This document shows, piece by piece, positions 355 to 19,652 of a stretch of DNA of 64,000 bases (position 1 is its first letter; the number at the start of each line of letters is the position of its first letter). A program made the position numbers and the translations under genes. Location: positions 1 through 64,000 of the forward strand of contig QCDH01000005.1 of NCBI GenBank assembly GCA_003280985.1. The letters are read 5' to 3'. Under the pieces are notes generated by a model. The model worked only from the letters and a program-made list of their open reading frames with translations. It searched no databases and was not told the DNA's origin. This DNA comes from Prochlorococcus sp. AG-355-A18 (lineage in GTDB: Bacteria > Cyanobacteriota > Cyanobacteriia > PCC-6307 > Cyanobiaceae).

Positions 355-1827
355 TTAGCTATTTAATTTTTCCATAAGAAGTTTATTTGCAAGTTTAGGG
401 TCAGCTTTACCTTTTGTTTTTTTCATAAGTTGACCAACAAAAAAACCAAGTAACTTAGTTTTGCCATTTTTAAATGCTTGAACTTCATTTGGATGTTCAT
501 TTATAAGTTCATCAATTATTGGTGAAATACTTGAAGAATCAGATATCATTGCCAACCCTTTTTCTTCAACTAATTTTTTCGGGGAAATATTTTTTTGAAT
601 AAGTTCAGGTAAAATTTCTTTTGCAATTTTTCCACTAATTATATTTTTTGAAATCATGTTGATCATTTCAGCAAGATTTTCAGGACTAAGCTTTAATTCA
701 CTAAAACTTAGTTTGTTTGATTTTAAATAGCCAACAATATCACTTGTTACCCAATTTGAAGCTAGTTTAGCCTCAGCACCATTTGCTACTGTTTGTTCAA
801 AAAAGTTTGCCATGCTTATTTCATCAGAAATTACCCTTGCATCATATGCAGACAACCCAAATTGACTTACGTATTTATATCTTTTCTTTGAAGGTAATTC
901 TGGTAGTTCTTTAAACCATATTTCTTGTTGGGCTTTTGTTATTTCAATTGGACCTAAGTCAGGATCAGGAAAATATCTATAGTCACTGCTACCTTCTTTT
1001 AATCTCATACTTTTAGTTAATTGCTTAGCTTCATCCCATAACCTTGTTTCTTGGAAAATTTTTCCTCCATTTTCATAAACTTCTATTTGTCTGGCTATTT
1101 CATAATCACAAGCCTTTTGAATTGCAGAAAATGAATTCATATTTTTTATTTCCACTTTGGTACCAAAAGGTGCATTAGGTCCTTTTCTAACTGAAATATT
1201 GACATCGCAGCGTAATGAACCCTCTTGCATATTTCCGTCTGATACCCCTAGATATCTAACTGTTCTTCTAATTTCTGAAGCATATTCAGATGCCTCTTTA
1301 CCTGATCTAATATCTGGTTTACTTACAATCTCACAAAGTGCTATTCCGGCACGATTGTAATCAACTAAAGAATACTTAGAGCCAGCTAATCTATCACTTC
1401 CTGAATGGACTAGTTTTCCAGCGTCTTCTTCCATATGTAGCCTTTCTATACCAATTTTTTTGAAATAAGGTTCTTTGTCCTTTTCAATTATTTCAACCTC
1501 TAACCAACCATTTTCAGCTAGTGGCTCATCAAATTGTGAAATTTGATAATTTTTAGGAAGATCAGGATAAAAATATTGTTTTCTATCAAATTTACAATGT
1601 TCTGCAACGTTTAAATTTAATGCTAACGAAGTTTTTACAGCATACTCAAGAACAGTCTCATTCAGAACTGGAAGAGTTCCTGGTAACCCACAAACTACAG
1701 GATCTATATGGGTATTAGGTGCATCACCAAAAGCTGTTGACGCAGATGTGAATATTTTACTTTTCGTATTAAGCTGTACATGAGTTTCCAAACCAATCAC
1801 AGCTTCCCAAGATTCCAAATTGTTCAT
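355..1827 (-). CDS. gatB: Aspartyl/glutamyl-tRNA amidotransferase subunit B
   Basis: GatB is the kinase/transamidase subunit of GatCAB, which converts Glu-tRNA(Gln) to Gln-tRNA(Gln). Cyanobacteria lack a glutaminyl-tRNA synthetase and depend on this route. The 490-aa length is normal. The N-terminal signature GLETHVQLNTKSKIF and the YFYPDLPKNYQIS segment are visible, and the C-terminal ~150 residues form the helical, YqeY-like tRNA-binding tail. The start codon at 1827 gives the usual short leader before the signature. It is divergent from thiO, with 79 nt between them for both promoters. No gatA or gatC is adjacent. Confidence 0.97.
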   Translation of the reverse strand: MNNLESWEAVIGLETHVQLNTKSKIFTSASTAFGDAPNTHIDPVVCGLPGTLPVLNETVLEYAVKTSLALNLNVAEHCKFDRKQYFYPDLPKNYQISQFDEPLAENGWLEVEIIEKDKEPYFKKIGIERLHMEEDAGKLVHSGSDRLAGSKYSLVDYNRAGIALCEIVSKPDIRSGKEASEYASEIRRTVRYLGVSDGNMQEGSLRCDVNISVRKGPNAPFGTKVEIKNMNSFSAIQKACDYEIARQIEVYENGGKIFQETRLWDEAKQLTKSMRLKEGSSDYRYFPDPDLGPIEITKAQQEIWFKELPELPSKKRYKYVSQFGLSAYDARVISDEISMANFFEQTVANGAEAKLASNWVTSDIVGYLKSNKLSFSELKLSPENLAEMINMISKNIISGKIAKEILPELIQKNISPKKLVEEKGLAMISDSSSISPIIDELINEHPNEVQAFKNGKTKLLGFFVGQLMKKTKGKADPKLANKLLMEKLNS

Positions 1828-1906
1828 TATTAAAAGTCTCTTTATTAATATTATTGGATATAAAGGAAAAGAGGACTAAAACACAAATAAAAATATTAAT
1901 TTTTAA

Positions 1907-3016
1907 ATGGCACAACAAACCAAAAATTCAATATTAATCATTGGAGGTGGACTTTTAGGTTTATCTATTGCTTATGAATTTTCTAGAAATAACTTCAAAG
2001 TTTTAGTTTTAAGCAAAAACAGAAATGAATCAGCTGGATTTGTTGCTGCAGGAATGTTAGCTACTCATGCCGAAGGGCTCGAAGATGAATTACTAAAATT
2101 TGGCCAAGAAAGTCAAAATCTAATTCCAAAGTGGATACAAAGTATTGAACAAGATAGTAATATTAAATGCGGTTTAAAAAAATGTGGCATAGTAGTTCCT
2201 TTTAAAAACAAAGAAGATCTTGAAGAGTTTCCCACTTATGAATATGGAAAATATTTAAATCACAAAGATCTTCAAATAGAAATCAATGGAATGAATTCTA
2301 TTTGGAAACATGGTTTACTTTTTGAGCAAGATGGTCAAATAGATAACCGAAGAAAACTGATGCGTGCTCTTGAGAGAGCATGCTCATTGAATGGAGTCGA
2401 TTTTCAAGAGGGATCAGAAGTAGAGGATTTGACATTCGAAAAAAACAAAATTACAGGTGCAAGAGTTTTATGTGCCACTGGGGAAATAAAAAAAATTAAC
2501 TGCGAAAAAGCAATTATATGCAGCGGTGCTTGGAGTAAAAAAATTTTTAATAAGATTCCAGTCTTTCCTGTAAAGGGACAAATGCTTTCAATACAAGGTC
2601 CAACAAATTTTTTGAAAAGAGTTATTTTTGGTCCAAAAACTTATCTAGTTCCCCGTGATGATGGACTTATCATAGTTGGAGCGACAGTTGAAAAAGATTC
2701 AAAATTTAATCAAGGTAATACTCCTAATGGAATAAAGCAACTGCAAGAAGGCATTCGCTCCTTATTACCAGAAGCTATTAATTGGCCACAAATGGAACAT
2801 TGGTGGGGATTTAGACCTTGCACACCAGATCTGAAACCAATAATTGGAAAATCAAAAATTGAAAATCTTTTTATAGCTACAGGACATTACAGAAATGGAG
2901 TTTTATTTTCTGCAATAACAAGTGATCTTCTTTTGAAAATAGTTCAAAATAAAAATCTCAACGAAATAGAAAAAAGCTTTTTAGAAAAATTTAGTTTAGA
3001 TAGATTTGCGATTTAA
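1907..3016 (+). CDS. thiO: FAD-dependent amino-acid oxidase, glycine oxidase type (ThiO-like)
   Basis: This is a 369-aa flavoprotein of the DAO family. The dinucleotide-binding motif IIGGGLLGLS lies at residues 11-20. The C-terminal segment GHYRNGVLFSAITSDLL matches the FAD-contacting end of ThiO and DadA-like oxidases. ThiO oxidises glycine to the imine used to build the thiazole of thiamine. The exact substrate cannot be read from the sequence, so another small amino acid is possible. No thi genes are adjacent; thiL lies about 25 kb away. It converges on ndk with only 3 nt between stops. Confidence 0.85.
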   Translation: MAQQTKNSILIIGGGLLGLSIAYEFSRNNFKVLVLSKNRNESAGFVAAGMLATHAEGLEDELLKFGQESQNLIPKWIQSIEQDSNIKCGLKKCGIVVPFKNKEDLEEFPTYEYGKYLNHKDLQIEINGMNSIWKHGLLFEQDGQIDNRRKLMRALERACSLNGVDFQEGSEVEDLTFEKNKITGARVLCATGEIKKINCEKAIICSGAWSKKIFNKIPVFPVKGQMLSIQGPTNFLKRVIFGPKTYLVPRDDGLIIVGATVEKDSKFNQGNTPNGIKQLQEGIRSLLPEAINWPQMEHWWGFRPCTPDLKPIIGKSKIENLFIATGHYRNGVLFSAITSDLLLKIVQNKNLNEIEKSFLEKFSLDRFAI

Positions 3017-3019
3017 ATT

Positions 3020-3478
3020 TTAATTTTCGGATCGCCATTTCGAATCAGAAGTTTCCCACTCACATAGTTCCTCTTCGTTAAACCATAGATCAATTTCAAA
3101 TTTTGCTGTATCTTCTCCATCAGAACCATGAATAATATTCCTCCCAATATCAATAGCTAAATCACCTCTAATTGTTCCAGGCTCTGCTTCCAGAGGTTTT
3201 GTTGCACCTATTAGTTTTCTAGCACTCAAAATAACTCCTGCGCCTTCCCACACCATTGCTACAACAGGACCACTTGAAATAAAGTCTACTAAATCACCAA
3301 AAAAGGGTCTTTCTCTATGTACTCCATAATGATTTTGAGCAAGTTCTTTTGAAGGAATTAATTGCTTTAATCCAACCAATTTAAATCCTTTTTTTTCAAA
3401 TCTGCCAATAATCTCAGAAACATATCCTCTTTGAACTCCATCCGGTTTAATTGCAATAAAGGTTCTCTCTTGGGTCAT
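3020..3478 (-). CDS. ndk: Nucleoside diphosphate kinase
   Basis: Ndk transfers the gamma-phosphate between nucleoside triphosphates and diphosphates through a phospho-histidine. The 152-aa length is typical. The N-terminus [13 protein letters not shown] is the family nucleotide-binding start, and the active-site histidine is H117 in NIIHGSD. The start at 3478 puts the first strand at the usual distance. It faces speA divergently across a 122-nt gap that would hold both promoters; no clear operator was seen there. Confidence 0.98.
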
Positions 3479-3600
3479 TTAGTTAATAATCACTCTATGT
3501 ATATTCAACTTTTGGGTGGTAACTTGGCAAGTAATCATTAAAATAAAAGATATTGTTTTGAGTTATTTTCAAAAACATTTATTAATTACCAAGACATAAA

Positions 3601-5547
3601 TTGACCAATTTTGAGCCGAAAAAATTAAAAAATATTTGGACTATTAAAGATAGTATTGCGACTTATAACATAGACAAATGGGGAGATAAATATTTTTCTA
3701 TAAATTCCAAAGGAAATATATCAGTAACTAAAGATATAAAATCTGAAAATAAGATTGATCTTTTTAAGCTTGTTAAAGAACTTAAGAGTAGAGAAATAAA
3801 TCCTCCATTAATCATAAGATTTAATGATATCTTGAAAGATCGAATAAATGCATTACATGACTCTTTTTTAAAAGCAATAAAAACCTATAAATATAAGAAC
3901 ATTTATCAAGGCGTTTTTCCTGTAAAGTGTAATCAACAGAAAAATGTCCTAGAAAAGATTATAGAGTTTGGTAGCCAATGGGATTTTGGTTTAGAAGTAG
4001 GAAGTAAATCAGAACTATTAATTGGCCTTGCACTTCTTGAAAACCAAAATTCATTATTAATATGCAACGGATATAAAGATAAAAAATATATTGAGATTGC
4101 TACTTTGGCCAGAAAACTCGGCAAAAATCCAATAATAGTTATTGAACAACGAGATGAGGTAAAAAGAATTATTCAAGCAGTTCAAGAACTTAATGCGACT
4201 CCATTGATAGGAATTAGAGCAAAGTTATCAAGTAAAAGTAGTGGTAGGTGGAGTAAATCTATTGGAGATAATTCCAAATTTGGATTATCAATCCCAGAAA
4301 TTATGTTGACAATAAAAGAACTAAAAGAAGCAAATCTTATAAACGAAATGAAATTGCTTCATTTTCATATAGGCAGTCAAATAAGTGATATTGCTGTGAT
4401 CAAAGACGCATTACAAGAAGCGAGTCAAATATATGTTGAACTATGCAAACTAGGAGCCCCAATGCAATATATCGACGTTGGGGGTGGATTAGGAATAGAT
4501 TTTGATGGAACTAAAACCTCCTCCAACACTTCTACTAATTATTCTCTCCAAAATTATGCTAACGATGTAATTGCAACTATTAAGGATTCATGTGAATTAA
4601 ATAATATCAAGCATCCAACCATAATCTCAGAAAGTGGAAGAGCAATAATTAGTCATTGTTCAGTTTTAATTTTTAATGTCTTAGGAACAAGTCATGTCAG
4701 TTCCAAACTACAAATTTTTGATAAAAAAAATCAACAATTAATAATTTCAAATTTACTTGATACTTTCTATGAATTAAAAAAACTTAAAAATAAAAAAATA
4801 AATTTATCTCAAATAATTGAACTATGGAATGATGCAAAAAAGTTTAAAGAAGATTGCTTAGTCGCTTTTAGATTAGGATTTTTAAGTTTGGCAGAAAGAG
4901 CTTATGCCGAAGAACTTACTTGGGCTTGCGCAAAAGAAATTTCTAATAACCTGAATAATTATGAAATCAATCACCCTGATTTATCTGAAATTACAGAAAC
5001 TCTTGCATCAACTTATTATGCAAATTTATCTATATTTAAATCTATTCCCGATAGCTGGGCAATAAATCAGATTTTTCCAATAGTACCAATACATAGACAC
5101 TTAGAGGAGCCGTTCTGCAAAGGTAACTTTGCAGATTTAACTTGTGATTCAGATGGGAAACTAAATAATTTTATTGATGATGGAAAAATTAAATCATTAC
5201 TAAATTTACATAAGCCAGAGGAAGATAAAGATTATCTAATTGGAATTTTTATGACTGGAGCCTATCAAGAAGCATTAGGAAACTTGCACAATTTATTTGG
5301 TAGTACAAACGTTGTTCATATAGACATAAATGAAGATGATTCTTATAAGGTCAAAAATATTATTAAAGAGGACAGTAAATCCGAAATTTTACAATTATTA
5401 GATTACAGTTCAGCTTCTTTGGTTGAATCTATAAGGATTAATACTGAATCAGCAATTGATCAAAAAAAATTGACTATTGAAGAAGCGAGGAAATTAATTG
5501 GTCAAATCGAAATTAGTCTCAGAAAAAGTAGTTATTTATCAGAATGA
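3601..5547 (+). CDS. speA: Biosynthetic arginine decarboxylase (TTG start)
   Basis: SpeA decarboxylates arginine to agmatine, the entry to polyamine synthesis. This 648-aa protein has the alanine-racemase-like PLP barrel. The PLP lysine is K109 in VFPVKCNQ, and HIGSQI and the glycine-rich [12 protein letters not shown] phosphate-binding loop follow. The N-terminus matches the expected family start, but the codon is TTG. An in-frame stop 18 nt upstream (TAA, 3583-3585), with no ATG or GTG after it, leaves TTG at 3601 as the best start. The last 16 nt overlap the 3' end of alaS on the other strand. Confidence 0.95.
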
Positions 5548-8192
5548 CTATCTAATATTTTTTGCAAATAATTTTTAGCATAATCTAGAGCATCATTTAA
5601 CTTATCAATATCTTTAGCACCTGCTTGAGCAAAGTTAGGCTTTCCTCCTCCACCTCCCGAACAAATTCTTGCAATCTCATTAATTAATTTACCTGCATGC
5701 AATCCATTTTTTACTGCATCATCACCTAAAGAAACTGCAAATAACAACTTTCTATTTTCTGGATTTGGTATTCCCCCAAGAATCACTATTGCTTTATTTC
5801 CCAAATGAGAAGTTAAATTAAGTGCTGCAGATTGCAGAGAATTCCCATCTAAGCCATCAATCTGATTTACTAAAATTGAAAAAGAATTTACTATTTCTGC
5901 GGATGATTTTATAGCAGAGTATTTAAAATATGCAATTTCATCTTTCATTTTTTTTATCTCTTTATTCTTATTATTAAGCTCTGCTTGCAAATTATTAACC
6001 CTTTCAAAAAGTTGATTAGGATTTGCTTTTAACAAATCACTTAGTTGATTTACTAAAGCATTTCTTTCACTGAAATAGTCTAATGCTGATTGGCCTGATA
6101 ATGCTTCAATTCTTCTTACTCCGGCTGAGATTCCTTCCTCACTAATTATTTTGAAATAACCTAATTCGGATGTAGTTTTAACATGTGTGCCACCACAAAG
6201 TTCCATTGAAACTCCTTGCACATTAACAACGCGCACCTCATCTTCATATTTTTCTCCAAACATGGCGACTGCGCCCTTTTCAAGAGCCTCACTCTTGGAC
6301 ATATTTTTTATTTCTAGTGCATGATTTTCCATAATCCAAGAATTAACTAAAGTCTCAATCTTAGTAATTTGATCTTTAGAAATAGGATTAGAAGAATTAA
6401 AGTCAAATCGTAATTTATTGAAGGCTACTAATGAACCTTTCTGTCCAACACTTTCATTAACAACTGATTTAAGTGCAGATTGTAATAAATGAGTAGCTGT
6501 ATGATTTGCAGCCGCCTTAGCTCTATTAGCGGAACTAACATTAGTCTTAACTTTTTGTCCAGTAGTTAATATTCCTTTTTTTATCGTTCCATAATGTAAA
6601 AAAACATTTTTCTTTCGAATAACATTATCAACCAAGACCTCTACATCTTTGGAAAATATCGTTCCAATATCACCAACTTGCCCACCAGATTCTCCATAAA
6701 AAGTTGTCTGATCAAGAACAATTAAAACTTTCTGATCTGCACTTGCTTGCTTAACTAGTGTTGCATCCACAAATATACCCTTTATTTCAGCTTCCGAAAG
6801 AAGTGAATCATAACCATTAAAAACAGTTTTGTTAAAAAGAACAATTTCTCGCTCTAATGATCCCTCTAATGTCAAATCAATATTACTTGAAGCAGCTTTA
6901 GCTCTCTCTTTTTGTGCATTCATTTCTTCTTCAAAACCCTTTATATCTACACTAATACTGTTTTCTTCAGCAATTTCTGCAGTAAGTTCTAGAGGAAATC
7001 CATAAGTATCATAGAGTTCAAAAGCTTTAAAGCCAGAAATTAATTTCTGCCCTGAAGAAATTAACTCATCTAGCAATTTCTCTCCTCTTTCAAGAGTTTC
7101 CCTAAATCTTATTTCTTCAATTTTTATCTCATTCAAAATTAAATCATTATTATTTTTTAAATCAGGATAATTATTTTGCATTAAATTGATCCCGACAGTA
7201 GCAATATGAGGTAAAAATTCATTTGTTATACCTAATAATCTCCCATGTCTGACCATTCTTCTAATAAGCCTTCTTAATATATATCCTCTGCCGAGATTAC
7301 TTGGTGCTACTCCGTCAGAAATTAAATGAATAACAGCTCTTGTATGATCTCCAAGGATTTTTAAAGAAATTTTGTTTTTATCATCTGAAGAAAAATAATC
7401 AATATTTGCAATCTCACAAATTTTTTGAATGATAGGAAAAATTAAATCTGTCTCATAGTTATTTTGCTTTTTTTGTAGTATTTGAGCCATCCTTTCAAGA
7501 CCCATTCCTGTATCAATATTTTTAAATTTTAAATCTGTCAATTTTCCATTAGGGTCACGATTATATTGCATAAAAACAAGATTATAAAATTCAATAAAGC
7601 GATCTCCATCTTCTAAATCAATATTCTGCAGACCCTTTTCAGGATGAAAATCATAATAAAGTTCTGAACAAGGTCCACATGGACCTGTTTTGCCAGATGA
7701 CCAAAAATTATCTTTCTCTCCTAGTTTCACTATCCTATCTGGATGAATACCTATTTCATCTCTCCAAATTTTTGCAGACTCTTCGTCTTCGTGAAAAACA
7801 CTCACAATTATATTTTCAACAGAAAGTTGATAAATATTAGTAACTAATTCCCAAGCCCATTGAATAGCCTCTCGTTTAAAATAATCTCCAAATGAGAAAT
7901 TACCAAGCATTTCAAAAAAAGTATGATGTCTAGCTGTCACTCCAACGTTTTCTATATCGTTTGTTCTGATGCACTTTTGGCTAGATGTAGCCCTTTTTGA
8001 TGGTCTTTCTTTTAAACCTAAAAAAACTGGTTTAAAAGGTAGCATTCCAGCAATTGTGAGCATAACCGTAGGATCATCTGGAATCAAAGATGCACTTGGA
8101 ATGATTTTATGTAATTTTTCACTATAAAATTTTAAAAAAGCATTTCTTATCTCATCTCCAGTAACTATTTTTTTCATTAGTTGAGATGTCAT
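5532..8192 (-). CDS. alaS: Alanyl-tRNA synthetase
   Basis: AlaS charges tRNA(Ala) and hydrolyses mischarged Ser- and Gly-tRNA(Ala). The 886-aa protein has the full class II layout: an aminoacylation core (residues ~1-450), an editing domain with the zinc-type motifs NHTATH and CGGTH, and a C-terminal DHHA1 domain ending in [13 protein letters not shown]. An internal ATG five codons in ([10 protein letters not shown]) is an alternative start. It converges on and overlaps speA by 16 nt. Its 5' side faces the flavodiiron operon across 120 nt. Confidence 0.98.
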
Positions 8193-8312: not shown

Positions 8313-10088
8313 ATGATAGCCTCTGCCCAGACAAGTAATTCTAAATTGGCACAAATAAATAACAAGTTGACAGTCCAATCTCAAAATTTTACTTATGATT
8401 CTTGTGCTATAAGATCTTTGGATTGGGATCGCAGTAGATTTGATATTGAATTTGGCTTAAGAAATGGAACTACTTACAATAGTTTTATTATTAAAGGCGA
8501 AAAAATAGCAATTATTGATACTAGTCACGCAAAGTTCGAAGAATTATGGTTTGAAGAATTACTGAAAAAGGTAAACCCCAAAGATGTTGATTATCTAATT
8601 ACAAGCCATACAGAACCTGACCATTCTGGTTTAATAGGTAATCTTTTAGAATTAAACCAAAATATCACAGTAGTTGGATCAAAATTAGCCCTTAAATTTA
8701 TTGAAGACCAAATACATATTCCCTTTAAGCGTCTAGAGGTTAAGAGTGGAGAATTTTTAAATTTAGGAACTAATCCTAATAGCGGTTTAGAACATAATAT
8801 TGAATTTATAAGTGCACCAAATTTACATTGGCCAGATACAATATTTTCATATGATCACAGCACACATGTTCTCTATACATGCGATGCATTTGGACTCCAT
8901 TATTGTTCTGACGAATTTTTTGACATTGATCAAAAAGAAATATACGATGATTTCCGTTTTTATTACGATTGCCTTATGGCTCCAAACGCTAGAAGCGTTC
9001 TACAGGCAATTAAAAGAATAGATAAGCTACCTGAATTAAAAACAATAGCTGTTGGTCATGGGCCTTTGCTCAATAATCAGGTTAATTTTTGGAAAGGAAA
9101 ATATCTAGAATGGAGTAGCAATAAAAGCAAAGGTAATGATTTTGTTTCAGTCTGCTATATCAGTGACTATGGTTATTGTGATCGACTAAGTCAAGCGATA
9201 TCTCATGGAATAAGTAAAGCGGATGCACAAGTTCAATTAATTGATTTAAGATCTTCTGATCCGCAAGAATTAACAAGTTTGATTTCCGAATCAAAAGCAG
9301 TAGTCATTCCCACATGGCCAGTAGACTCAGATAATGAATTAAAGGAGTCTCTCGGGACTTTATTTGCAGCACTAAAACCGAAACAATTTACTGCTGTCTA
9401 TGATGCATTTGGTGGAAATGATGAACCAATAGATTCTTTAGCAAATAAATTAAGAGAACTTGGACAAAAAGAAGCTTTCTCTCCTTTAAGAGTTAAAAAT
9501 ATTCCAGATCCCATTGTTTATCAACAATTTGAAGAAGCTGGAACTGACTTGGGTCAATTGATCAATAAAAAGAAGAATATTGCCTCTATGAAGAGCCTTG
9601 ATTCAAACTTAGATAAAGCATTAGGTAGATTAAGTGGGGGATTATATGTTGTTACAGCGAGCCAAGGGGAAGGTTCGACATTTAGACAAAGTGCAATGGT
9701 TGCAAGTTGGGTTAGTCAAGCAAGCTTTTCTCCACCGGGTATTACAGTTGCAGTAGCAAAAGATAGAGCTATTGAATCATATATGCAAGTTGGGAAAGGT
9801 TTTGTTGTGAATATCTTAAGAGAGGATAACTACCAAAAAATGTTCAGACATTTTTTAAAGAGATTTGCTCCTGGAGCTGATAGATTTGCAGAAGTAGATG
9901 TAATTAGCAACATCGCTGAAGGAGGACCAGTTCTCTCAGATTCACTCGCCTTTTTAGATTGTAAAGTTAGTTCTAGACTGGAGACTCCAGACCATTGGAT
10001 AATTTACGGAATTGTTGAAAATGGTAATGTTTCTGACTTATCATGCAAGACAGCAGTTCATCACAGAAAAGTTGCTAATCACTATTAG
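8313..10088 (+). CDS. flv3: Flavodiiron protein with intact diiron site (Flv3-type)
   Basis: This 591-aa cyanobacterial flavodiiron protein has three parts: a beta-lactamase-like diiron domain (~30-260), a flavodoxin-like FMN domain (~280-410) and a C-terminal flavin-reductase domain (~435-585). The iron ligands are all present: H99, E101, D103 and H104 (HTEPDH), H172 in NLHWPD, D191 in CDAFG and H249 in GHGP. In model cyanobacteria Flv1/Flv3 reduce O2 to water with electrons from photosystem I, protecting the photosystem without releasing superoxide. It leads a three-gene operon with a 16-nt gap to the Flv1-type partner. Naming it Flv3 rests on the intact ligand set. Confidence 0.9.
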   Translation: MIASAQTSNSKLAQINNKLTVQSQNFTYDSCAIRSLDWDRSRFDIEFGLRNGTTYNSFIIKGEKIAIIDTSHAKFEELWFEELLKKVNPKDVDYLITSHTEPDHSGLIGNLLELNQNITVVGSKLALKFIEDQIHIPFKRLEVKSGEFLNLGTNPNSGLEHNIEFISAPNLHWPDTIFSYDHSTHVLYTCDAFGLHYCSDEFFDIDQKEIYDDFRFYYDCLMAPNARSVLQAIKRIDKLPELKTIAVGHGPLLNNQVNFWKGKYLEWSSNKSKGNDFVSVCYISDYGYCDRLSQAISHGISKADAQVQLIDLRSSDPQELTSLISESKAVVIPTWPVDSDNELKESLGTLFAALKPKQFTAVYDAFGGNDEPIDSLANKLRELGQKEAFSPLRVKNIPDPIVYQQFEEAGTDLGQLINKKKNIASMKSLDSNLDKALGRLSGGLYVVTASQGEGSTFRQSAMVASWVSQASFSPPGITVAVAKDRAIESYMQVGKGFVVNILREDNYQKMFRHFLKRFAPGADRFAEVDVISNIAEGGPVLSDSLAFLDCKVSSRLETPDHWIIYGIVENGNVSDLSCKTAVHHRKVANHY

Positions 10089-10104
10089 AAAATAATTCTT
10101 TAAA

Positions 10105-11907
10105 ATGTCAGATATTAATATAGGCTTACTTACAGAAAATCAAAACTTATCAGAATTTGAAATTACCGAAAATTTTTCTTGTGTAAGATTCTTAGACCAG
10201 AATAAAGAAAGATTTGAACTCGAATTTAACCTTGAAAAAGGAACCTCTTTTAATACTTTTTTCATTAGGAGTAATGAGAAACTTTTTATTATTCATCCAC
10301 CTGAGAAACAATATTTAAATTCATTTAATAGAGTAATTTCTAGGTTTTTCGATCAATTTAAATTAAATCAAATAAACTTCATTACTGGTCATATTAATCC
10401 CCAAATTATTGAAACCATAAAAAATATAAGTACCCAATTTCAAAACACAACTATTACTTGCTCTAATCCAGGTTATAAACTTATTAGCGAACTTTGGAAT
10501 CAAAGAAATCCTAATTTAGCAAACTTTATTGAAATTCACTTACCTGAAATAAACATAATCAAAAAAGAACTTAATTTAGAATTAGATAACATTTCACTAG
10601 AGTTAATTCCTATTCCAACAGCACGTTGGCCAGGGGGGCTGATAATTTATGAACGTAATCAAGAAATTCTTCTTAGTGAAAAAATTTTCTCTGCACACAT
10701 TGCATCTAAATATTGGTCTGAAACAAATCGAGTTAGTACAGAAATTGATAGGAAACATTTTTATGATTGCTTGATGGCACCAATGTCTAATCAAGTAATA
10801 TCAATAACTGAAAAAATTGCAGATTATGACATTCAAACTATTGCACCATTACATGGTCCCGCGATCGAATATAGCTTAAAAAGCTTTTTAAATGACTATA
10901 TTAGATGGGGAGATAACCTCTCAACAAATAATCCTAAAATCGCTCTAATATATGCAAGTGCTTATGGAAATACAGCATCAATAGGTGATGCATTGGCTAA
11001 AGGGATAAATAGAACCTCTGTAGAAGTTGAAAGTATTAATTGTGAATTTACACCTAATGATGTACTTGTAAAATCTATCCAAAATGCTGATGGGTACTTA
11101 ATAGGCTCACCCACATTGGGTGGTCATGCCCCAACTCCGATAGTTAGTGCATTAGGAACATTGTTGGCAGAGGGTAATAGAGATAAGCCAGTCGGAATTT
11201 TTGGCAGTTTTGGATGGAGCGGTGAAGCTATAGATTTACTTGAAACAAAGTTAAAAGACGGTGGTTTTAATTTTAGTTTTGACCCTATAAGGATTAAATT
11301 TAGTCCAAATAAACCAAAGATTAAAGAGTTAGAAGAAATGGGAACTCACTTTGGCAGAAAAATCATAAAAAAAGCAAAGAAAAAACCCAGAAAATCAGAT
11401 ACGGGAATGATTACAAGCAAAACGGATCCAAAGCTACAAGCTCTTGGAAGAGTAATTGGTTCACTTTGTGTCCTGACAGCTTCTAAAGGCAAAGATGAGA
11501 ATAATATTAAAGGAGCTATGCTTGCATCTTGGGTTAGTCAAGCAAGTTTTTCACCGCCCGGGTTAAGTATTGCAGTAGCAAAAGATAGATCAGTAGAGTC
11601 TCTTCTGCAAATAGGAGATTCATTCGCTTTAAATATTCTTAGTGAAAAGGATTTTAAAGAACCTTTGAAAAGATTTACAAAGCCCTTTGCACCTGGGGAA
11701 GATAGATTTGACGGAATAAATATTGAATTAACTCCTAATGAACAGATAATAATTCCTGAATCGCTCGCATGGTTAGATGCTTCTGTAAAAGAGAGAATGG
11801 AATGTGGAGATCACTGGGTAATTTACGCCGAAGTACTGCACGGTAATATACTAAGATCCGATAGTCTAACGGCAGTTCATCACCGCAAAACAGGTGCTAA
11901 CTATTAA
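10105..11907 (+). CDS. flv1: Flavodiiron protein with degenerate diiron site (Flv1-type)
   Basis: This 600-aa paralogue of the preceding gene has the same three domains, but its iron site is broken. The HxExDH motif reads HINPQI (H96, N98, Q100, I101). The next histidine is replaced by R174 (TARWPG), and the aspartate position appears to be K193. H250 in LHGP remains. Loss of these ligands is the hallmark of the Flv1/Flv2 branch, thought to work only as the partner of Flv3 or Flv4. The FMN loop (ASAYGNTASIG) and the flavin-reductase domain (MLASWVSQASFSPPG) look intact. The flv3-flv1-reductase order implies a co-transcribed heteromer module. Confidence 0.9.
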   Translation: MSDINIGLLTENQNLSEFEITENFSCVRFLDQNKERFELEFNLEKGTSFNTFFIRSNEKLFIIHPPEKQYLNSFNRVISRFFDQFKLNQINFITGHINPQIIETIKNISTQFQNTTITCSNPGYKLISELWNQRNPNLANFIEIHLPEINIIKKELNLELDNISLELIPIPTARWPGGLIIYERNQEILLSEKIFSAHIASKYWSETNRVSTEIDRKHFYDCLMAPMSNQVISITEKIADYDIQTIAPLHGPAIEYSLKSFLNDYIRWGDNLSTNNPKIALIYASAYGNTASIGDALAKGINRTSVEVESINCEFTPNDVLVKSIQNADGYLIGSPTLGGHAPTPIVSALGTLLAEGNRDKPVGIFGSFGWSGEAIDLLETKLKDGGFNFSFDPIRIKFSPNKPKIKELEEMGTHFGRKIIKKAKKKPRKSDTGMITSKTDPKLQALGRVIGSLCVLTASKGKDENNIKGAMLASWVSQASFSPPGLSIAVAKDRSVESLLQIGDSFALNILSEKDFKEPLKRFTKPFAPGEDRFDGINIELTPNEQIIIPESLAWLDASVKERMECGDHWVIYAEVLHGNILRSDSLTAVHHRKTGANY

Positions 11908-15216: not shown

Positions 15217-15930
15217 TTAAGTTATTGATAACTGCCAACGCTTCTTTAAATAATTACAGTATTCGCAATTTAAGGACGGTTTTGGAAAAACATCCGAACG
15301 TAATAAATTAACCGTATCAATTATCTTATTCTCTACCCATGAAGTGGAACAATCTAATTTAATTAGATGTACGTCAAAATTTAATTGGCTATTAAATAAC
15401 TCTTCATTTTTCTTACCATTGAAATATAAAAGATAAGCTTCTTTAGCCACTTGAAAACCGTTTTTTTTAAACAACCACTGGTACATTTCTAACTGTCTTT
15501 TATAAGCTTTTGCATATTCGTATTTATTAAAAGTCTCAAACCAATCAAAATTATTTCTAGATGTTGCTTTAACATCAACGATAATAAGATGACCATTTTT
15601 TTTCTGCCAAATATCATCTATAGCTCCACCGAAGTCATATTTGTGTTCAATTGACTTATATCTTATCCCTTGAAAATTATTTCTCCAACGTTCAAAATCT
15701 TTGTGTTTGAAAGGTACAGCATCAATTCCATTTTCAATAAATAAAGGATGGGGCTCCTGAATTTTTCTATAATAATCAAATTCATTTTTACATAAATTAT
15801 CCACAGCTATATTTAAGGTAAATGGTAATGATGGCGGTTTTATTTGATATTTTTTGTCCAAGACACAACATCTTGGACAACTAAGATATTTCTCAACTGT
15901 AGATCTACTTAATTTAATAATATCGGGCAT
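15217..15930 (-). CDS. PD-(D/E)XK nuclease-like protein with cysteine cluster (RecB/Cas4-like)
   Basis: The 237-aa protein carries the RecB-type nuclease motifs: GGAIDD (D105), IIVDVKAT with D119 and K121, and a QxxxY helix at Q146-Y150. Cysteines lie at both ends: C18, C21 and C22 near the N-terminus, C222-x2-C225 near the C-terminus, plus C194. In Cas4 and AddB, cysteines placed this way hold a [4Fe-4S] cluster, so an iron-sulfur nuclease is possible. No cas genes or CRISPR repeats occur in the window. Nuclease activity is inferred from motifs; its substrate and pathway are unknown. Confidence 0.7.
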   Translation of the reverse strand: MPDIIKLSRSTVEKYLSCPRCCVLDKKYQIKPPSLPFTLNIAVDNLCKNEFDYYRKIQEPHPLFIENGIDAVPFKHKDFERWRNNFQGIRYKSIEHKYDFGGAIDDIWQKKNGHLIIVDVKATSRNNFDWFETFNKYEYAKAYKRQLEMYQWLFKKNGFQVAKEAYLLYFNGKKNEELFNSQLNFDVHLIKLDCSTSWVENKIIDTVNLLRSDVFPKPSLNCEYCNYLKKRWQLSIT

Positions 15931-15999
15931 TACGTTTTAAATCTCATTTAAAAATTTCTTGCTTAAATAAAAAACTTTAAATTTTTTAAAAGTTTGAAG

Positions 16000-16023
16000 A
16001 CTTACTTCCACTTAATGGTTCCA
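16000..16023 (-). repeat. Degenerate copy of the guaA 3' end (candidate distal attachment site)
   Basis: Read on the minus strand, this segment encodes Gly-Thr-Ile-Lys-Trp-Lys-stop. The last codons of guaA encode Gly-Thr-Ile-Glu-Trp-Glu-stop. By eye, 20 of 24 bases match 18064-18087 in the same orientation. A shortened copy of a host gene's 3' end is the usual trace of integration by a tyrosine recombinase, and guaA is a known integration hotspot in other bacteria. The match is seen directly; its origin by integration is inferred. Confidence 0.45.
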
Positions 16024-16116
16024 CCCAATTTTTAATGCTTCAAACTGGTTGGTATCATTAACCTCTTCAAAAGGAGAATTCTCGTAACAAACCCCTGACA
16101 AACCAAAGAGTACCAT
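16012..16116 (-). CDS. Possible small ORF (34 aa)
   Basis: An ATG at 16116 opens a 34-codon frame ending at 16012, with a weak AAGG about 15 nt upstream. The peptide looks like ordinary protein sequence, with a hydrophobic start (MVLFGLSGVCYENS) and an acidic-aromatic second half. It overlaps both the guaA-tail-like segment, in a different frame, and the direct repeats. It could be a real small protein or a chance frame. It resembles nothing I recognise. Confidence 0.2.
   Translation of the reverse strand: MVLFGLSGVCYENSPFEEVNDTNQFEALKIGWNH
16082..16104 (+). repeat. Tandem 11-bp direct repeats, left copy
   Basis: Two adjacent 11-bp units, TCGTAACAAAC and CCCTGACAAAC, are followed by C. By eye, 20 of 23 bases match the segment at 18005-18027, which has the same two-unit structure. 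The pair lies about 60 nt inside the left guaA-tail copy. Paired short direct repeats at both ends of an element resemble the arm-type binding sites of a tyrosine recombinase; this role is inferred. Confidence 0.45.
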
Positions 16117-16266
16117 TGTTTATACTTTACCTTGCAATTATATGAACTAATTGTAGAGAATTCGTTGGTAAATATCAAAATTTTGACGTTTAAAAAATTA
16201 GCTTAGATAGTCTCTAAAGAACTCTATAACTATAATCAACACAAAGTTGAACAGTATTACTAAAAA

Positions 16267-17859
16267 ATGAATGATTTTGAAAATCAAGATAAATTTCATA
16301 AAAAACAAAACAAAAACACCAAAAAAATTAACCCTTCTAAAGAACAAATATTAAGTCAAGCATTTCAGTTTCATTCACAAGGAAATATTTCAGAAGCAGC
16401 CAAATATTATCAATATTTTATTAATCAGGGATTCGAAGACTATAAAGTATTTTCTAATTATGGAGTCATATTAGTGGGTTTCGGCAAATTTAAAGAAGCA
16501 GTATTTTGTTATCGCAAAGCAATTAAACTTAATCCTGATTTCGCTGACGCACATTTCAATCTTGGAAATTTAATGAGAAATCTAGGCGAATTACAAAAAG
16601 CAGAAGTTTCCTTTCGCAAAGCAATCGAAATAAATCCTAATTTTGCGAATGCTCATTCCAATCTTGGAAATGTATTAAGAGATCTTGGAAATTTACATCA
16701 AGCAGAAGTTTCCTTCCGCAAAGCAATTGAAATAAATCCTTATAATGCGATCTTTCATTCCAATTTAGGAGGTATTTTGAAAAATTTTGGCAAATTAAAA
16801 GAGGCGGAATTATCTTGTCTAAAAGCAATTGAAGTAAATCCTAATTATGCAAGAGCATATTTTTCAATTTCCAATCTTAAATATTCCGACAAAAATAAAA
16901 TGTGGAGGGATAACCTTTTTTCTAAAAGCATATTAACTAACAAATCAACACAAGATCATATTGATATTTACTTCGCAAGAGCAAATGTTCTTCATAAAGA
17001 AAAAAATTATAGTGATAGTTCTAAGTATCTAGAATTAGCGAATAAACTAAAACTTACTATTCGTCCATCGAAACCTGAGATAATACTCAATAAATCAAAA
17101 TCATTACTTTTTGAAACTGATAAAATAAAAAATAGTCAAAAAAATAATACAAAATTTTCTCAGAGTATTTTCATAGTAGGAATGTTTAGAAGTGGTTCTA
17201 CTTTATTAGAATCAATTTTAAGTATGAATAATAGTGTGGATGATTTAGGGGAGATTAAAATCCTAGAAAATTCATTTTTAGAGAGTAAAAAAATTAATCA
17301 ATCATTATCTCTTGCTAAAAACTATTGGACAAAGATTAAAGAATTGAATAAAAAATCGCATATAACAACTAATAAAAACTTATTTAATTATCAATATACT
17401 GGGATCATCGCTAAAGAAATACCAAATTCCAAAATAATTCATTGTTTTAGAAATCCTTTAGATAATATTCTTTCAATTTTTCGAGCACATTTTGCTATTG
17501 GAAATGAATATTCATCGTCCCTTGTCGATACTACAAAAGTATACTTAGATCAAGAAGCAGTAATGACAGAATATAAAAATAGATTTAGATCAAAAATATA
17601 TGACCTAAATTATGACTCTTTAGTTAGTAATCCTCAAAAAGAAATCAAGGATTTAATTTCTTGGTTAGGGTGGAAATGGGAAGATACATATTTATCACCT
17701 CATCTCAATTCTCGTTCAGTTTTAACTCGCAGCAACGTTCAAGTTCGTTATCCTATAAATTCCAAATCTATTGGAAGTTGGAAAAACTATAAAGAAATGC
17801 TTAAACCTGCTATGGAAATCATTACTAAAAACGATAAATACACTGACCTTAAGTATTAG
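16267..17859 (+). CDS. TPR-repeat sulfotransferase
   Basis: This 530-aa fusion has several tetratricopeptide repeats (~28-255) followed by a sulfotransferase domain (~298-510). The 5'-phosphosulfate loop of PAPS binding is FIVGMFRSGSTLLES (302-316), and the 3'-phosphate site is CFRNPLDNILSIF (393-405). Related bacterial proteins sulfate glycans, proteins or lipids; the acceptor here is unknown. Two consecutive TPR units (from 16600 and 16702) are nearly identical at the DNA level with a 102-bp period, so they duplicated recently or are kept alike by recombination. The gene stands alone between repeats resembling attachment sites at guaA, which suggests acquisition as cargo. Confidence 0.85.
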   Translation: MNDFENQDKFHKKQNKNTKKINPSKEQILSQAFQFHSQGNISEAAKYYQYFINQGFEDYKVFSNYGVILVGFGKFKEAVFCYRKAIKLNPDFADAHFNLGNLMRNLGELQKAEVSFRKAIEINPNFANAHSNLGNVLRDLGNLHQAEVSFRKAIEINPYNAIFHSNLGGILKNFGKLKEAELSCLKAIEVNPNYARAYFSISNLKYSDKNKMWRDNLFSKSILTNKSTQDHIDIYFARANVLHKEKNYSDSSKYLELANKLKLTIRPSKPEIILNKSKSLLFETDKIKNSQKNNTKFSQSIFIVGMFRSGSTLLESILSMNNSVDDLGEIKILENSFLESKKINQSLSLAKNYWTKIKELNKKSHITTNKNLFNYQYTGIIAKEIPNSKIIHCFRNPLDNILSIFRAHFAIGNEYSSSLVDTTKVYLDQEAVMTEYKNRFRSKIYDLNYDSLVSNPQKEIKDLISWLGWKWEDTYLSPHLNSRSVLTRSNVQVRYPINSKSIGSWKNYKEMLKPAMEIITKNDKYTDLKY

Positions 17860-17892
17860 TCATTAAATATATATTTATGAATATCTGCATTT

Positions 17893-18021
17893 ATGAAAAA
17901 AATATTTAGAAAAAACAAACTTTATACGATTTCTCTGAAGAGACGGTCAATTAGGGCTATGACAAACAAAGGGATTGAAATCACAGTAATTCCGCTAATA
18001 TCATTCGTGACAAACTCGTGA
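17893..18021 (+). CDS. Possible small basic ORF (42 aa)
   Basis: An ATG at 17893 opens a 42-codon frame ending with a TGA that lies inside the right-hand direct repeats. The N-terminal half is strongly basic (MKKIFRKNKLYTISLKRRS) and the second half is hydrophobic. There is no convincing ribosome-binding site. It may be a remnant of a lost coding region between the sulfotransferase and guaA, or chance. Confidence 0.15.
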   Translation: MKKIFRKNKLYTISLKRRSIRAMTNKGIEITVIPLISFVTNS

Positions 18022-18027
18022 CAAACC
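18005..18027 (+). repeat. Tandem 11-bp direct repeats, right copy
   Basis: Two units of TCGTGACAAAC lie back to back (18005-18015 and 18016-18026) and are near copies of the pair at 16082-16104. A further single copy, ATGACAAAC, is at 17959-17967. They lie about 37 nt inside the guaA 3' end. The perfect tandem unit and its placement at the edge of the sulfotransferase segment suggest protein-binding sites, possibly recombinase arm sites (inferred). Confidence 0.45.
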
Positions 18028-18063
18028 GCAAAAATGAGTATTTAACTACAATCTGAGACTATA

Positions 18064-18087
18064 ACTTATTCCCACTCAATAGTTCCA
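18064..18087 (-). repeat. guaA 3' end segment matching the distal copy (candidate attachment core)
   Basis: These are the last codons of guaA (ending GTIEWE-stop) and four bases beyond, which match 16000-16023 at 20 of 24 positions. In elements that insert at gene ends, the functional gene keeps one intact core and a second copy marks the far end. The functional guaA tail lies here. Confidence 0.4.
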
Positions 18088-19652
18088 GGAGGTTTGCTTG
18101 TAATATCATAAACAACTCTATTAACTGAACTTACTTCGTTTACGATTCTATTTGCAATCCTCTCCAAAATCTGGAAAGGAATTTTCGACCAATCGGCTGT
18201 CATACCATCTTCACTGGATACACAACGTAAAACTATTGGCCATGCATAAGTCCTTTTATCACCCATAACTCCTACTGTTTTTACAGGTAGCAATACTGCA
18301 AAAGCTTGCCAAATATCATTGTAAAGACCTGCTTGTTTAATTTCATCTCTTACTATCCAGTCTGCATCTCTTAAACAATCAAGTTTTTCATTATTCACCT
18401 CTCCCAAAATTCTTATAGCTAATCCTGGTCCCGGGAATGGATGCCTTTTTATAATTTCATCAGGCAAACCTAAAGCAGCTCCCAGTTTTCTGACTTCATC
18501 CTTAAAAAGTTTTCTTAATGGCTCAACTAATTTAAATTGTAAATCTTTTGGCAATCCACCCACATTATGATGACTCTTTATTTTTACAGCTATTCTTTCT
18601 CCTGTTTTAGGATCAATATTAGTCCCAGCACTTTCAATAACATCAGGATAAAGAGTACCTTGGGCTAAATACTGAAAAGGTCCCAATCTATTGCTTTCTT
18701 CCTCAAAAACTCTAATAAATTCTTCACCTATAATTTTTCTTTTTTGTTCTGGATCAGTAATACCTTTTAATTTGGCAATAAACCTTTCCCTTGCATTAAT
18801 ATATTCAACTTTTATATCAAATTTCTTATCAAAAAAATTCATTAAAAATTCCGGTTCACCTTTTCTCATGAAACCTTGGTCTATAAACATGCATGTAAGT
18901 TGATTTCCAATAGCTTTATTGAGAAGAAAAGCAAGAGTTGAGGAATCAACTCCTCCAGATAAGGCAAGCAAAACTTTTTTATCGCCAACTTGCTCTCTTA
19001 TCCTGGGAATAGTTTCCTCTATGAAGGTTTCGGTTGTCCAATCAGCAGCACAACAAGAAATTTTATAAACAAAATTTTTAATTACCGTCATCCCAAACTC
19101 TGAATGAATAACTTCAGGATGAAATTGTACGCCAAATAATTTCTTTACATCATTTGAAATTGCTGCATGGAGTGTGTTCTCGGTATGGGCAATTTTATTA
19201 AATCCATCAGGCAAGCAATTAATAGAATCGCCATGACTCATCCACATAATAGATTTATCTTCTACATCAAAAAGGAGGTCAGATTCTTGGTCTATATTTA
19301 TTGGTGCTCTACCATATTCAGCTCTTTTGGTTGCCGAAATAACAGATCCTCCAAGTTCTTTGACCATTAATTGCATTCCATAGCATATGCCAAGAATAGG
19401 AATTCCTAAATTAAAAATTTTTTCATCACACTTAGGCGCATTTTGTTCATATACAGAATTTGGGCCTCCACTCAAAATAATCCCTTTAGGGTTAATATTT
19501 TTAATTTCCTCAATTGAAATGTAATTACTTACAACAAGAGAAAAAACATTAGTTTCTCTAATTCTTCTTGCAATCAATTCAGAATATTGAGATCCGAAAT
19601 CCAAAATTAATATTGAAGGATCTCGTTCTTTTTTTAAAATTATTTGACTCAT
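18066..19652 (-). CDS. guaA: GMP synthase (glutamine-hydrolysing)
   Basis: GuaA aminates XMP to GMP with glutamine-derived ammonia. The 528-aa protein has a class I glutamine amidotransferase domain (nucleophile in GICYGMQ, histidine in GVQFHPEV), an ATP-pyrophosphatase P-loop ([13 protein letters not shown]) and the C-terminal dimerisation domain ending KPPGTIEWE. All parts are intact. Its extreme 3' end doubles as the putative attachment core described separately. It converges on the sulfotransferase gene with a 206-nt gap, unusually long for this window. Confidence 0.98.

Follow-up and report, generated by a model that had tools for sequence, protein, structure and literature searches.

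We analysed a stretch of 64,000 nucleotides (hereafter the window) from Prochlorococcus sp. AG-355-A18 (contig QCDH01000005.1, positions 1 to 64,000), whose draft genome (1.18 Mb, 33 contigs) falls in the same genus group as Prochlorococcus genomes. The interval 16002-18065, between guaA (GMP synthase) and a gene of the PD-(D/E)XK nuclease family, is very probably (we put the probability at about 0.93) a small integrative unit lacking a recombinase, which entered site-specifically at the 3' end of guaA, this gene end being a true attachment site of marine picocyanobacteria. In the mechanism that we propose from comparisons of genome sequences, a tyrosine recombinase would act on the core GAGTGGGA, present both in guaA and on the element, and the element would donate a new last codon and stop, so that guaA would stay intact, and the original tail would be pushed to the far side of the insert, beside the PD-(D/E)XK gene. 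Complete elements encode this recombinase close behind guaA, together with an HUH-type Rep, a 316-aa protein and a small serine recombinase. Most inserts are cargo units without that recombinase, many of them keeping matched 11-bp direct repeats at both ends as the proposed arm sites, and several such units may stack in tandem.

An earlier note on this DNA had claimed a 20-of-24-base match, in the same orientation, between 18064-18087 and 16000-16023, which we reproduced. Its readings of the two segments as GTIEWE-stop and GTIKWK-stop are also correct; it had taken the first segment as the last codons of guaA, and here the guaA stop codon lies at 18066-18068, so two of the 24 matched bases fall beyond the gene. 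The distal GTIKWK-stop copy is not a gene end, with an in-frame TAA four codons upstream. When the last 60 bases around the guaA end were compared with the interval in 300 first-order Markov shuffles, none reached the observed score with +1/-1 scoring and eight did with +1/-2 scoring; taken alone, these statistics are moderate. Only guaA (20) and the distal copy (18) match the tail consensus of empty strains at 16 or more of 21 positions anywhere in the 64 kb, on both strands, the next best place having 15. We regard the position of the copy as the strongest support for a real scar, as it ends 71 bp from the start of the PD-(D/E)XK gene, the spacing of empty strains (65-77 bp in 46 of 47). These sequence comparisons confirm the tail duplication. 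The features of the window around the insert are listed below.

18066..18087, minus strand: guaA-side attachment junction, with the core GAGTGGGA at 18070-18077, which is the core given for guaA islands in the excerpts available of PMC7775301 and PMC9376610
16002..16023, minus strand: displaced original guaA tail, forming the distal junction, with the core decayed to AAGTGGAA at 16006-16013
16002..18065, no strand: putative inserted unit, spanning the 2,064 bp between the guaA stop and the far edge of the displaced tail, absent from 47 of 129 loci
18066..19652, minus strand: guaA (GMP synthase), the target gene, ending in GAATAA, a type present at 2 of the 47 empty loci and 24 of the 82 filled ones
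18005..18027, minus strand: tandem 11-bp direct repeats of the GTTTGTCACGA type, proposed arm-type recombinase sites, inside the guaA-side end
17959..17973, minus strand: additional GTTTGTCA repeat, inside the guaA-side end
16082..16104, minus strand: related tandem repeats GTTTGTCAGGG and GTTTGTTACGA, inside the distal end, with only 8 bases in common with the left end
16267..17859, plus strand: cargo gene for a TPR protein of 530 aa with a sulfotransferase domain (PF13469, Pfam)
15931..16001, no strand: 71-bp spacer, the presumed original guaA-downstream sequence of the empty site, resembling empty-locus spacers in sequence and length
15217..15930, minus strand: PD-(D/E)XK nuclease-family gene (PF12705, Pfam), the conserved right flank

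As the earlier note had stated, the TPR-sulfotransferase gene is the only sizeable open reading frame (ORF) between the two tail copies and no recombinase remains there, in that a search for the guaA-type family found no match inside the insert. The window holds one unit only, with both tail copies kept, repeats at both ends and one large gene. In keeping both ends while integration and transfer genes are absent, this unit agrees with the description of cis-mobilizable elements (CIMEs) in the excerpt available of PMC5704250. A homologue of the cargo gene, 92% identical, is found at the same site in genome G231, and the nearest neighbour of the window in the guaA tree (locus L042) is empty. A 34-aa ORF before the distal copy was considered as a conserved small gene and rejected, because its tblastn matches are repeat-bearing end sequence that is present also in units without genes.

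Empty and filled sites across the genus

Of the 266 genomes of the genus, 262 contain a match to the guaA profile, some of these matches being weak and to paralogues. We fetched 140 loci, comprising 139 among the best-scoring guaA matches listed (about 150, some of them omitted) and one from a genome chosen for its recombinase (G185), which makes 141 with the window; 12 had no right flank on their stretch, leaving 129 loci for analysis, from the window and 128 genomes. Loci are given below by L numbers, the window being WIN, and genomes by G numbers. In empty loci 40-77 bp separate guaA from the start of the PD-(D/E)XK gene, and in filled loci 191-14,488 bp; a distal tail copy was scored when at least 15 of 21 bases match, 45-95 bp before the PD-(D/E)XK gene.

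Of the 129 loci 47 are empty, strains lacking the interval being one thing that the earlier note had proposed to look for, and 82 are filled, with varied cargo. This insertion polymorphism requires at least 37 changes between the empty and filled states on the guaA tree (128 rows), in which many branches are weakly supported. The distal tail copy is found at the expected place in 52 of the 82 filled loci, so that tail copies adjoining other cargo, also sought by the earlier note, are common. Among 5,261 control blocks taken from within the inserts, 58 hold a match, often an internal tail copy. Such internal matches (at least 15 of 21, in 267,574 bp) number 59 along the direction of guaA and 4 in the opposite direction, and 37 of the 82 filled loci have at least one; copies in guaA's direction are expected of tandem units, and tandem accretion is a feature of CIMEs. 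The two outcomes that the earlier note had named as speaking against its reading, namely a locus with no insertion polymorphism and a similarity failing the shuffle test, did not occur, and its view of the guaA tail as an attachment site and of the copy as a scar is borne out by the comparison of 129 loci and by the 71-bp spacing. At one locus (L025, genome G006) the 15 kb next to guaA contain no close PD-(D/E)XK neighbour, the sole match being one of 35% on the opposite strand, and this locus has either a very large insert or a rearrangement.

The last bases of guaA change with filling. Empty loci end in GAGTAA (40 of 47), GAGTAG (5) or GAATAA (2), and the 82 filled loci in GAATAA (24), GAGTGA (23), GAATAG (13), GAATGA (12), GAGTAA (6) or GAGTAG (4), the contrast in GAGTAA (40/47 against 6/82) giving a Fisher p of about 1e-19. 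Where a filled locus has a distal copy (52 loci), GAGTAA stands at 32 of the distal copies and at 6 of the guaA ends, which is the pattern of a replaced tail. Upstream of the core the pattern is reversed, with guaA retaining its own bases and the displaced copy differing (L121/L137, L053/L123 and L055/L116). Since the polymorphism on the stop side follows filling and the upstream bases stay with guaA, exchange is confined to GAGTGGGA, and we place the crossover in this 8-bp core, at which the distal copy of the window has two changes.

Recombinases beside guaA and complete elements

In G148, a scan of the genus with PF00589 revealed a recombinase gene that follows guaA at a distance of no more than about 1 kb. 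A profile built from the G148 and G185 recombinases has five close members in the 266 genomes (E 2e-173 or better, next best 5e-24), all of them downstream of guaA on the same strand, four about 0.2 kb away and that of G177 1.0 kb away, behind two small ORFs. In a wider sample of 400 genomes drawn from the family, with a match threshold of 1e-20, 31 genomes had a match, nine of these matches being full-length (1e-159 or better) and from six genera; all nine lie about 190-360 bp from the guaA end, that of G341 carrying an internal stop. Partial copies are found within about 2 kb of guaA in G475 and G513, and 17 kb away in G349, and none of the five weaker matches examined (G580, G464, G446, G596 and G431) is adjacent to guaA. 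The full elements with a tyrosine recombinase that the earlier note had proposed to look for are thus found at this site, with five of five members of this recombinase family in the genus and nine of nine full-length ones in the wider family sample lying just after guaA.

In a recombinase tree, the 11 guaA rows (10 distinct, as L211 and L213 are one genome) are separated from 12 other recombinases of the genus by a branch with a Shimodaira-Hasegawa-like approximate likelihood ratio test (SH-aLRT) support of 100, so that adjacency to guaA is a property of one clade. These proteins match PF00589 and phrog_1, and among solved structures their profile matches Tn-type Int proteins (best E 1e-5). 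One of them, compared with phage records, gave no match, and another gave a single weak match, to a Rhizobium plasmid; scans of viral contigs from exact short patterns, which work best for close relatives, confirmed no viral relative for either the recombinase or the 316-aa protein.

In the three complete elements (L112, L113 and L211) the recombinase is accompanied by an HUH-type protein, a conserved protein of 316 aa and a serine recombinase. In the HUH family, LHxH and YxNK, which we take to be HUH and YxxK-like Rep motifs, are invariant in all six sequences. The Rep profile PF23343 scores above its cut-off in L211, weakly (below cut-off) in L112 and not in L113. For the HUH protein, a sequence profile search of solved structures brought up no relative (best E 0.16), and its predicted model has a mean predicted local distance difference test (pLDDT) score of 59.7, with unspecific PDB matches, mostly to peptidases and small ferredoxin-like proteins; the matches of this low-confidence model include ISDra2 TnpA and also a REP-associated transposase. 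Members of the 316-aa family have 40-52% identity to the first of the five members, and a predicted model with mean pLDDT 53. L211 also encodes a 665-aa protein with a DUF5906 match below cut-off. No HUH match was found in the sequence stretch covered at L209 and L212, and no conjugation genes among ten ORFs scanned from two elements. No tRNA was found in the window or in five guaA-recombinase loci of about 4.4 kb, and the only tRNA at L211 lies about 2.5 kb upstream of guaA. In addition, L204 (G158, 1492-2316) has an open relative of the HUH-type Rep, with a serine-recombinase-like ORF nearby and no guaA-family recombinase in the genome (E limit 1e-12).

Units without a recombinase and how they spread

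A guaA-type recombinase match lies inside two of the 82 filled loci (L112 and L113) and is absent from 80, the guaA type being the one that was systematically excluded. The filled loci, cut at their tail copies, yield 103 delimited and 27 open-ended segments, 22 of the 103 being only 138-162 bp long. Repeats were scored at the ends of the 79 segments that reach 300 bp; tandem repeats of about 11 bp are found at 35 left and 38 right ends, compared with about one each in shuffles. Within a segment (n = 42) the left and right motifs have a mean of 11.6 bases in common, a value that drops to 6.9 after re-pairing and never exceeded 8.4 in 300 permutations. The role that we propose for these unit-specific repeats is that of arm sites.

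Of the seven motifs linked to a recombinase, six are present in at least two copies, counted over both ends together, in 1, 1, 5, 4, 6 and 5 of 76 recombinase-less segments, with none for the seventh motif, and in 0 of 594 internal control windows for each. Three further motifs, for which no recombinase is known, reach equal or higher frequencies, in 7, 6 and 14 of the 76 segments and in 1 of 594 internal windows each; the repeat type of the window, GTTTGTCAC, is one of these three. The GTTTCCCGT repeats are borne by the unit in L077 (segment 2448-5117). The recombinase-less units may thus be mobilised in trans, on the evidence of these shared repeats.

Cargo-free units of 138-162 bp are found between two guaA tail copies, directly after guaA, in L060, L056, L155, L166, L150, L190, L043 and other loci, and belong to at least two repeat families. 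They look like products of internal deletion of larger units between their end repeats.

The inserts contain 222 ORFs of at least 80 aa, in 110 clusters, the largest of which (56 ORFs from 33 loci) includes the gene of the window and has a TPR-methyltransferase as its longest member. We compared 28 insert ORFs, plus two from L209 and L211, with Pfam, and ten with PADLOC. Restriction and helicase types are represented by type IIG and type I restriction-modification proteins and by PLD- and SNF2-type helicases; the other cargo includes acyltransferases, an asparagine synthase with carbamoyltransferase and EPSP-synthase-, MreB- and DnaB-like genes, and several ORFs had no match.

It is doubtful, in our judgement, that the recombinase-less units are decayed elements that lost their own recombinase by deletion after entry and are now fixed. 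The displaced core of the window (two changes in eight bases) and its altered right-hand repeats would fit such a history, as would a decayed HUH gene fragment inside the guaA insert of G029; against it, some recombinase-less units keep identical paired end repeats, L121 being such a unit whose near-identical partner locus (L137) is empty, and six of the seven recombinase-linked motifs recur in the ends of recombinase-less units. The description of the insert as old and immobilised in the earlier note fits the copy of the window, with AAGTGGAA for GAGTGGGA, which is probably fixed by now; it does not extend to the system, with its state changes on the guaA tree and a 98%-identical stretch between two genera (see below). 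Nor need a missing recombinase mark an insert as immobile, as the earlier note had read it, its absence being the rule at this site, many such inserts having matched end repeats and mobilisation in trans being possible.

We consider it unlikely that the inserts spread mainly by homologous recombination in the flanks (guaA and the PD-(D/E)XK gene), site-specific integration being an older, original step. The rarity of guaA-family recombinases (5 of 266 genomes) speaks for such a spread, and so do L121, with a 7.8-kb unit of two large restriction-type genes and no guaA-type recombinase, and the empty L137. These two loci are identical at 1,583 of 1,584 guaA bases and for about 2 kb to the right (a tract of at least 3.6 kb), and diverge by 5-11% for some 1.7 kb beyond it, or by 4.2% over 8.6 kb as a whole, so the tract was shared recently by homologous recombination, which thus also moves alleles of the locus. 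However, one of the two is filled and the other empty within the shared tract, which places the gain or loss of the unit later than the exchange, and guaA ends change together with filling. In addition, L209 and L212, from different genera, match at 98.2% across a stretch of 1,692 bp that starts directly behind the guaA stop and takes in the recombinase gene, whereas their guaA genes are 73.7% identical, and identity falls to 81.5% further on; this recent transfer between genera has its breakpoint at the tail and not in the flanks. A chance similarity, or a local duplication unrelated to mobile DNA, has the eight of 300 shuffles under +1/-2 scoring in its favour and is practically untenable, being refuted in our judgement by the comparison of 129 loci. 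Distal copies are present at 52 of the 82 filled loci, the 64 kb contain no second place of this kind, empty sites exist, guaA tails are replaced, and recombinase genes lie at the site.

Besides the homologous exchange between L121 and L137, several observations weigh against site-specific entry of recombinase-less units at guaA. As its own core and repeats are decayed, the membership of the window in this system rests on position and pattern. The distal copy is missing at the expected place in 30 of the 82 filled loci, and 27 stretches end without a tail copy, so their borders are eroded or replaced. Two empty loci end in GAATAA and six filled loci in GAGTAA, and about half of the 79 segments have no strong tandem repeat at a given end. 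The recombinase of L212 has an internal stop, and the rate of recombinase-bearing filled loci (2/82) is biased by the non-random choice of loci.

Outside guaA, the window contains two genes at 8313-10088 and 10105-11907, which we take to be diflavin flavoprotein-like genes, with the gap 10088-10105 between them, the corresponding stretch of L063 being 841-6409. Across 109 loci covering both genes, the gap is below 40 bp in 84 and 306-5,736 bp in 25. A copy of the tail of the first gene (at least 12 of 15 bases) is found 13-16 bp before the second gene in seven of the 25 filled loci; in the other 18 the tail match is 8-11 of 15, no better than elsewhere within the insert. Many of these inserts have tandem GTTGAAA repeats at one or both ends, and two genomes, G138 and G009, encode a tyrosine recombinase from a different group some 0.5 kb behind the first gene. 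The 3' end of this first gene is likely to be a second port at a protein-coding gene.

A wider reading, which we offer tentatively and at somewhat less than even odds, is that guaA would be a cassette-exchange site of marine picocyanobacteria, in which short units of one or a few genes (defence, surface and metabolic), each with paired 11-bp repeats of its own type, owe their movement in trans to rare guaA recombinases of matching specificity, which circulate among genera on Rep-bearing elements. The cargo-free units of about 140 bp would then be the minimal mobile form, and the diflavin gene end a second port of the same design, served by another recombinase.

Relation to known elements and meaning for picocyanobacteria

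Integrons capture short cargo units serially at a single site, and their recombinase is encoded elsewhere than on the captured unit. The guaA units may resemble them in this capture, and differ from them by their paired repeats at both ends and their gene-tail core.

Comparisons with published elements draw on the excerpts available of the cited papers. In other bacteria, the guaA islands GIsul2 and ICERspD18B have the core GAGTGGGA (PMC9376610, PMC7775301); a review of integrative and mobilizable elements names ATE-1 and a Brucella IncP island as further guaA-targeting elements (PMC5704250), and the guaA islands of Song et al. 2012, as cited in PMC7775301, have a P4-type integrase and an alpA regulator. 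The picocyanobacterial elements are like these islands in using the guaA 3' end, in having a direct repeat with the core GAGTGGGA and in their tyrosine recombinase (PMC9376610, PMC7775301, PMC5704250), and the duplication of the gene end upon integration, which characterises guaA-targeting elements, is found here as well. A recombinase gene beside guaA is present in the complete elements (5/5 in the genus) and absent from the unit of the window. In contrast to the known islands, the picocyanobacterial elements have their own recombinase family, an HUH Rep and a 316-aa protein, and most units are recombinase-less, with many in tandem.

The ssrA islands of Dehalococcoides (vcr-GI) offer another parallel, as 15 of 31 lack an integration module and were suggested to be CIMEs moved by accretion (PMC3146451). 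They share with the guaA units a single-copy target gene and tandem islands bounded by copies of the gene end (PMC3146451), whereas the guaA units, compared with them by description, use a protein-coding target, have unit-specific paired 11-bp repeats and include cargo-free units of about 140 bp. Prochlorococcus tycheposons, also cargo islands with a tyrosine recombinase in the same genus, target tRNA genes, seven of them in Prochlorococcus (PMC10872708); the guaA site lacks this tRNA attachment, its target being a protein-coding gene. A picocyanobacterial integrase family at tRNA-Phe and tRNA-Cys, often with a small serine recombinase nearby (PMC10187409), is similar in its tyrosine recombinase and small serine recombinase, and is set apart from the guaA family, by description, through its site.

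The literature on Prochlorococcus and guaA, within the excerpts available, contained no treatment of guaA as an insertion site in Prochlorococcus; papers on tycheposons and virion-encapsidated integrative mobile elements (VEIMEs) fell outside this search and may hold a prior mention. As far as the literature searched goes, the kind of system is already known, from guaA islands and from ssrA islands with CIMEs, and what would be new is the host group, the recombinase group accompanied by a Rep, and the fact that most units lack a recombinase and have end repeats specific to the unit.

How cargo is gained and lost in the streamlined genomes of Prochlorococcus is a standing question, and the published islands are mostly tied to tRNA genes. 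From the comparisons presented here, the guaA end appears to serve picocyanobacteria as a protein-coding port where insertion is active and small elements are repeatedly gained and lost, one decayed unit lying in the window. The core of this port is mapped, close relatives differ in being empty or filled, and its recombinase group is common to other genera of the family. It carries restriction-type genes and sulfotransferases as cargo, and it yields a prediction as to which recombinases move which recombinase-less units.

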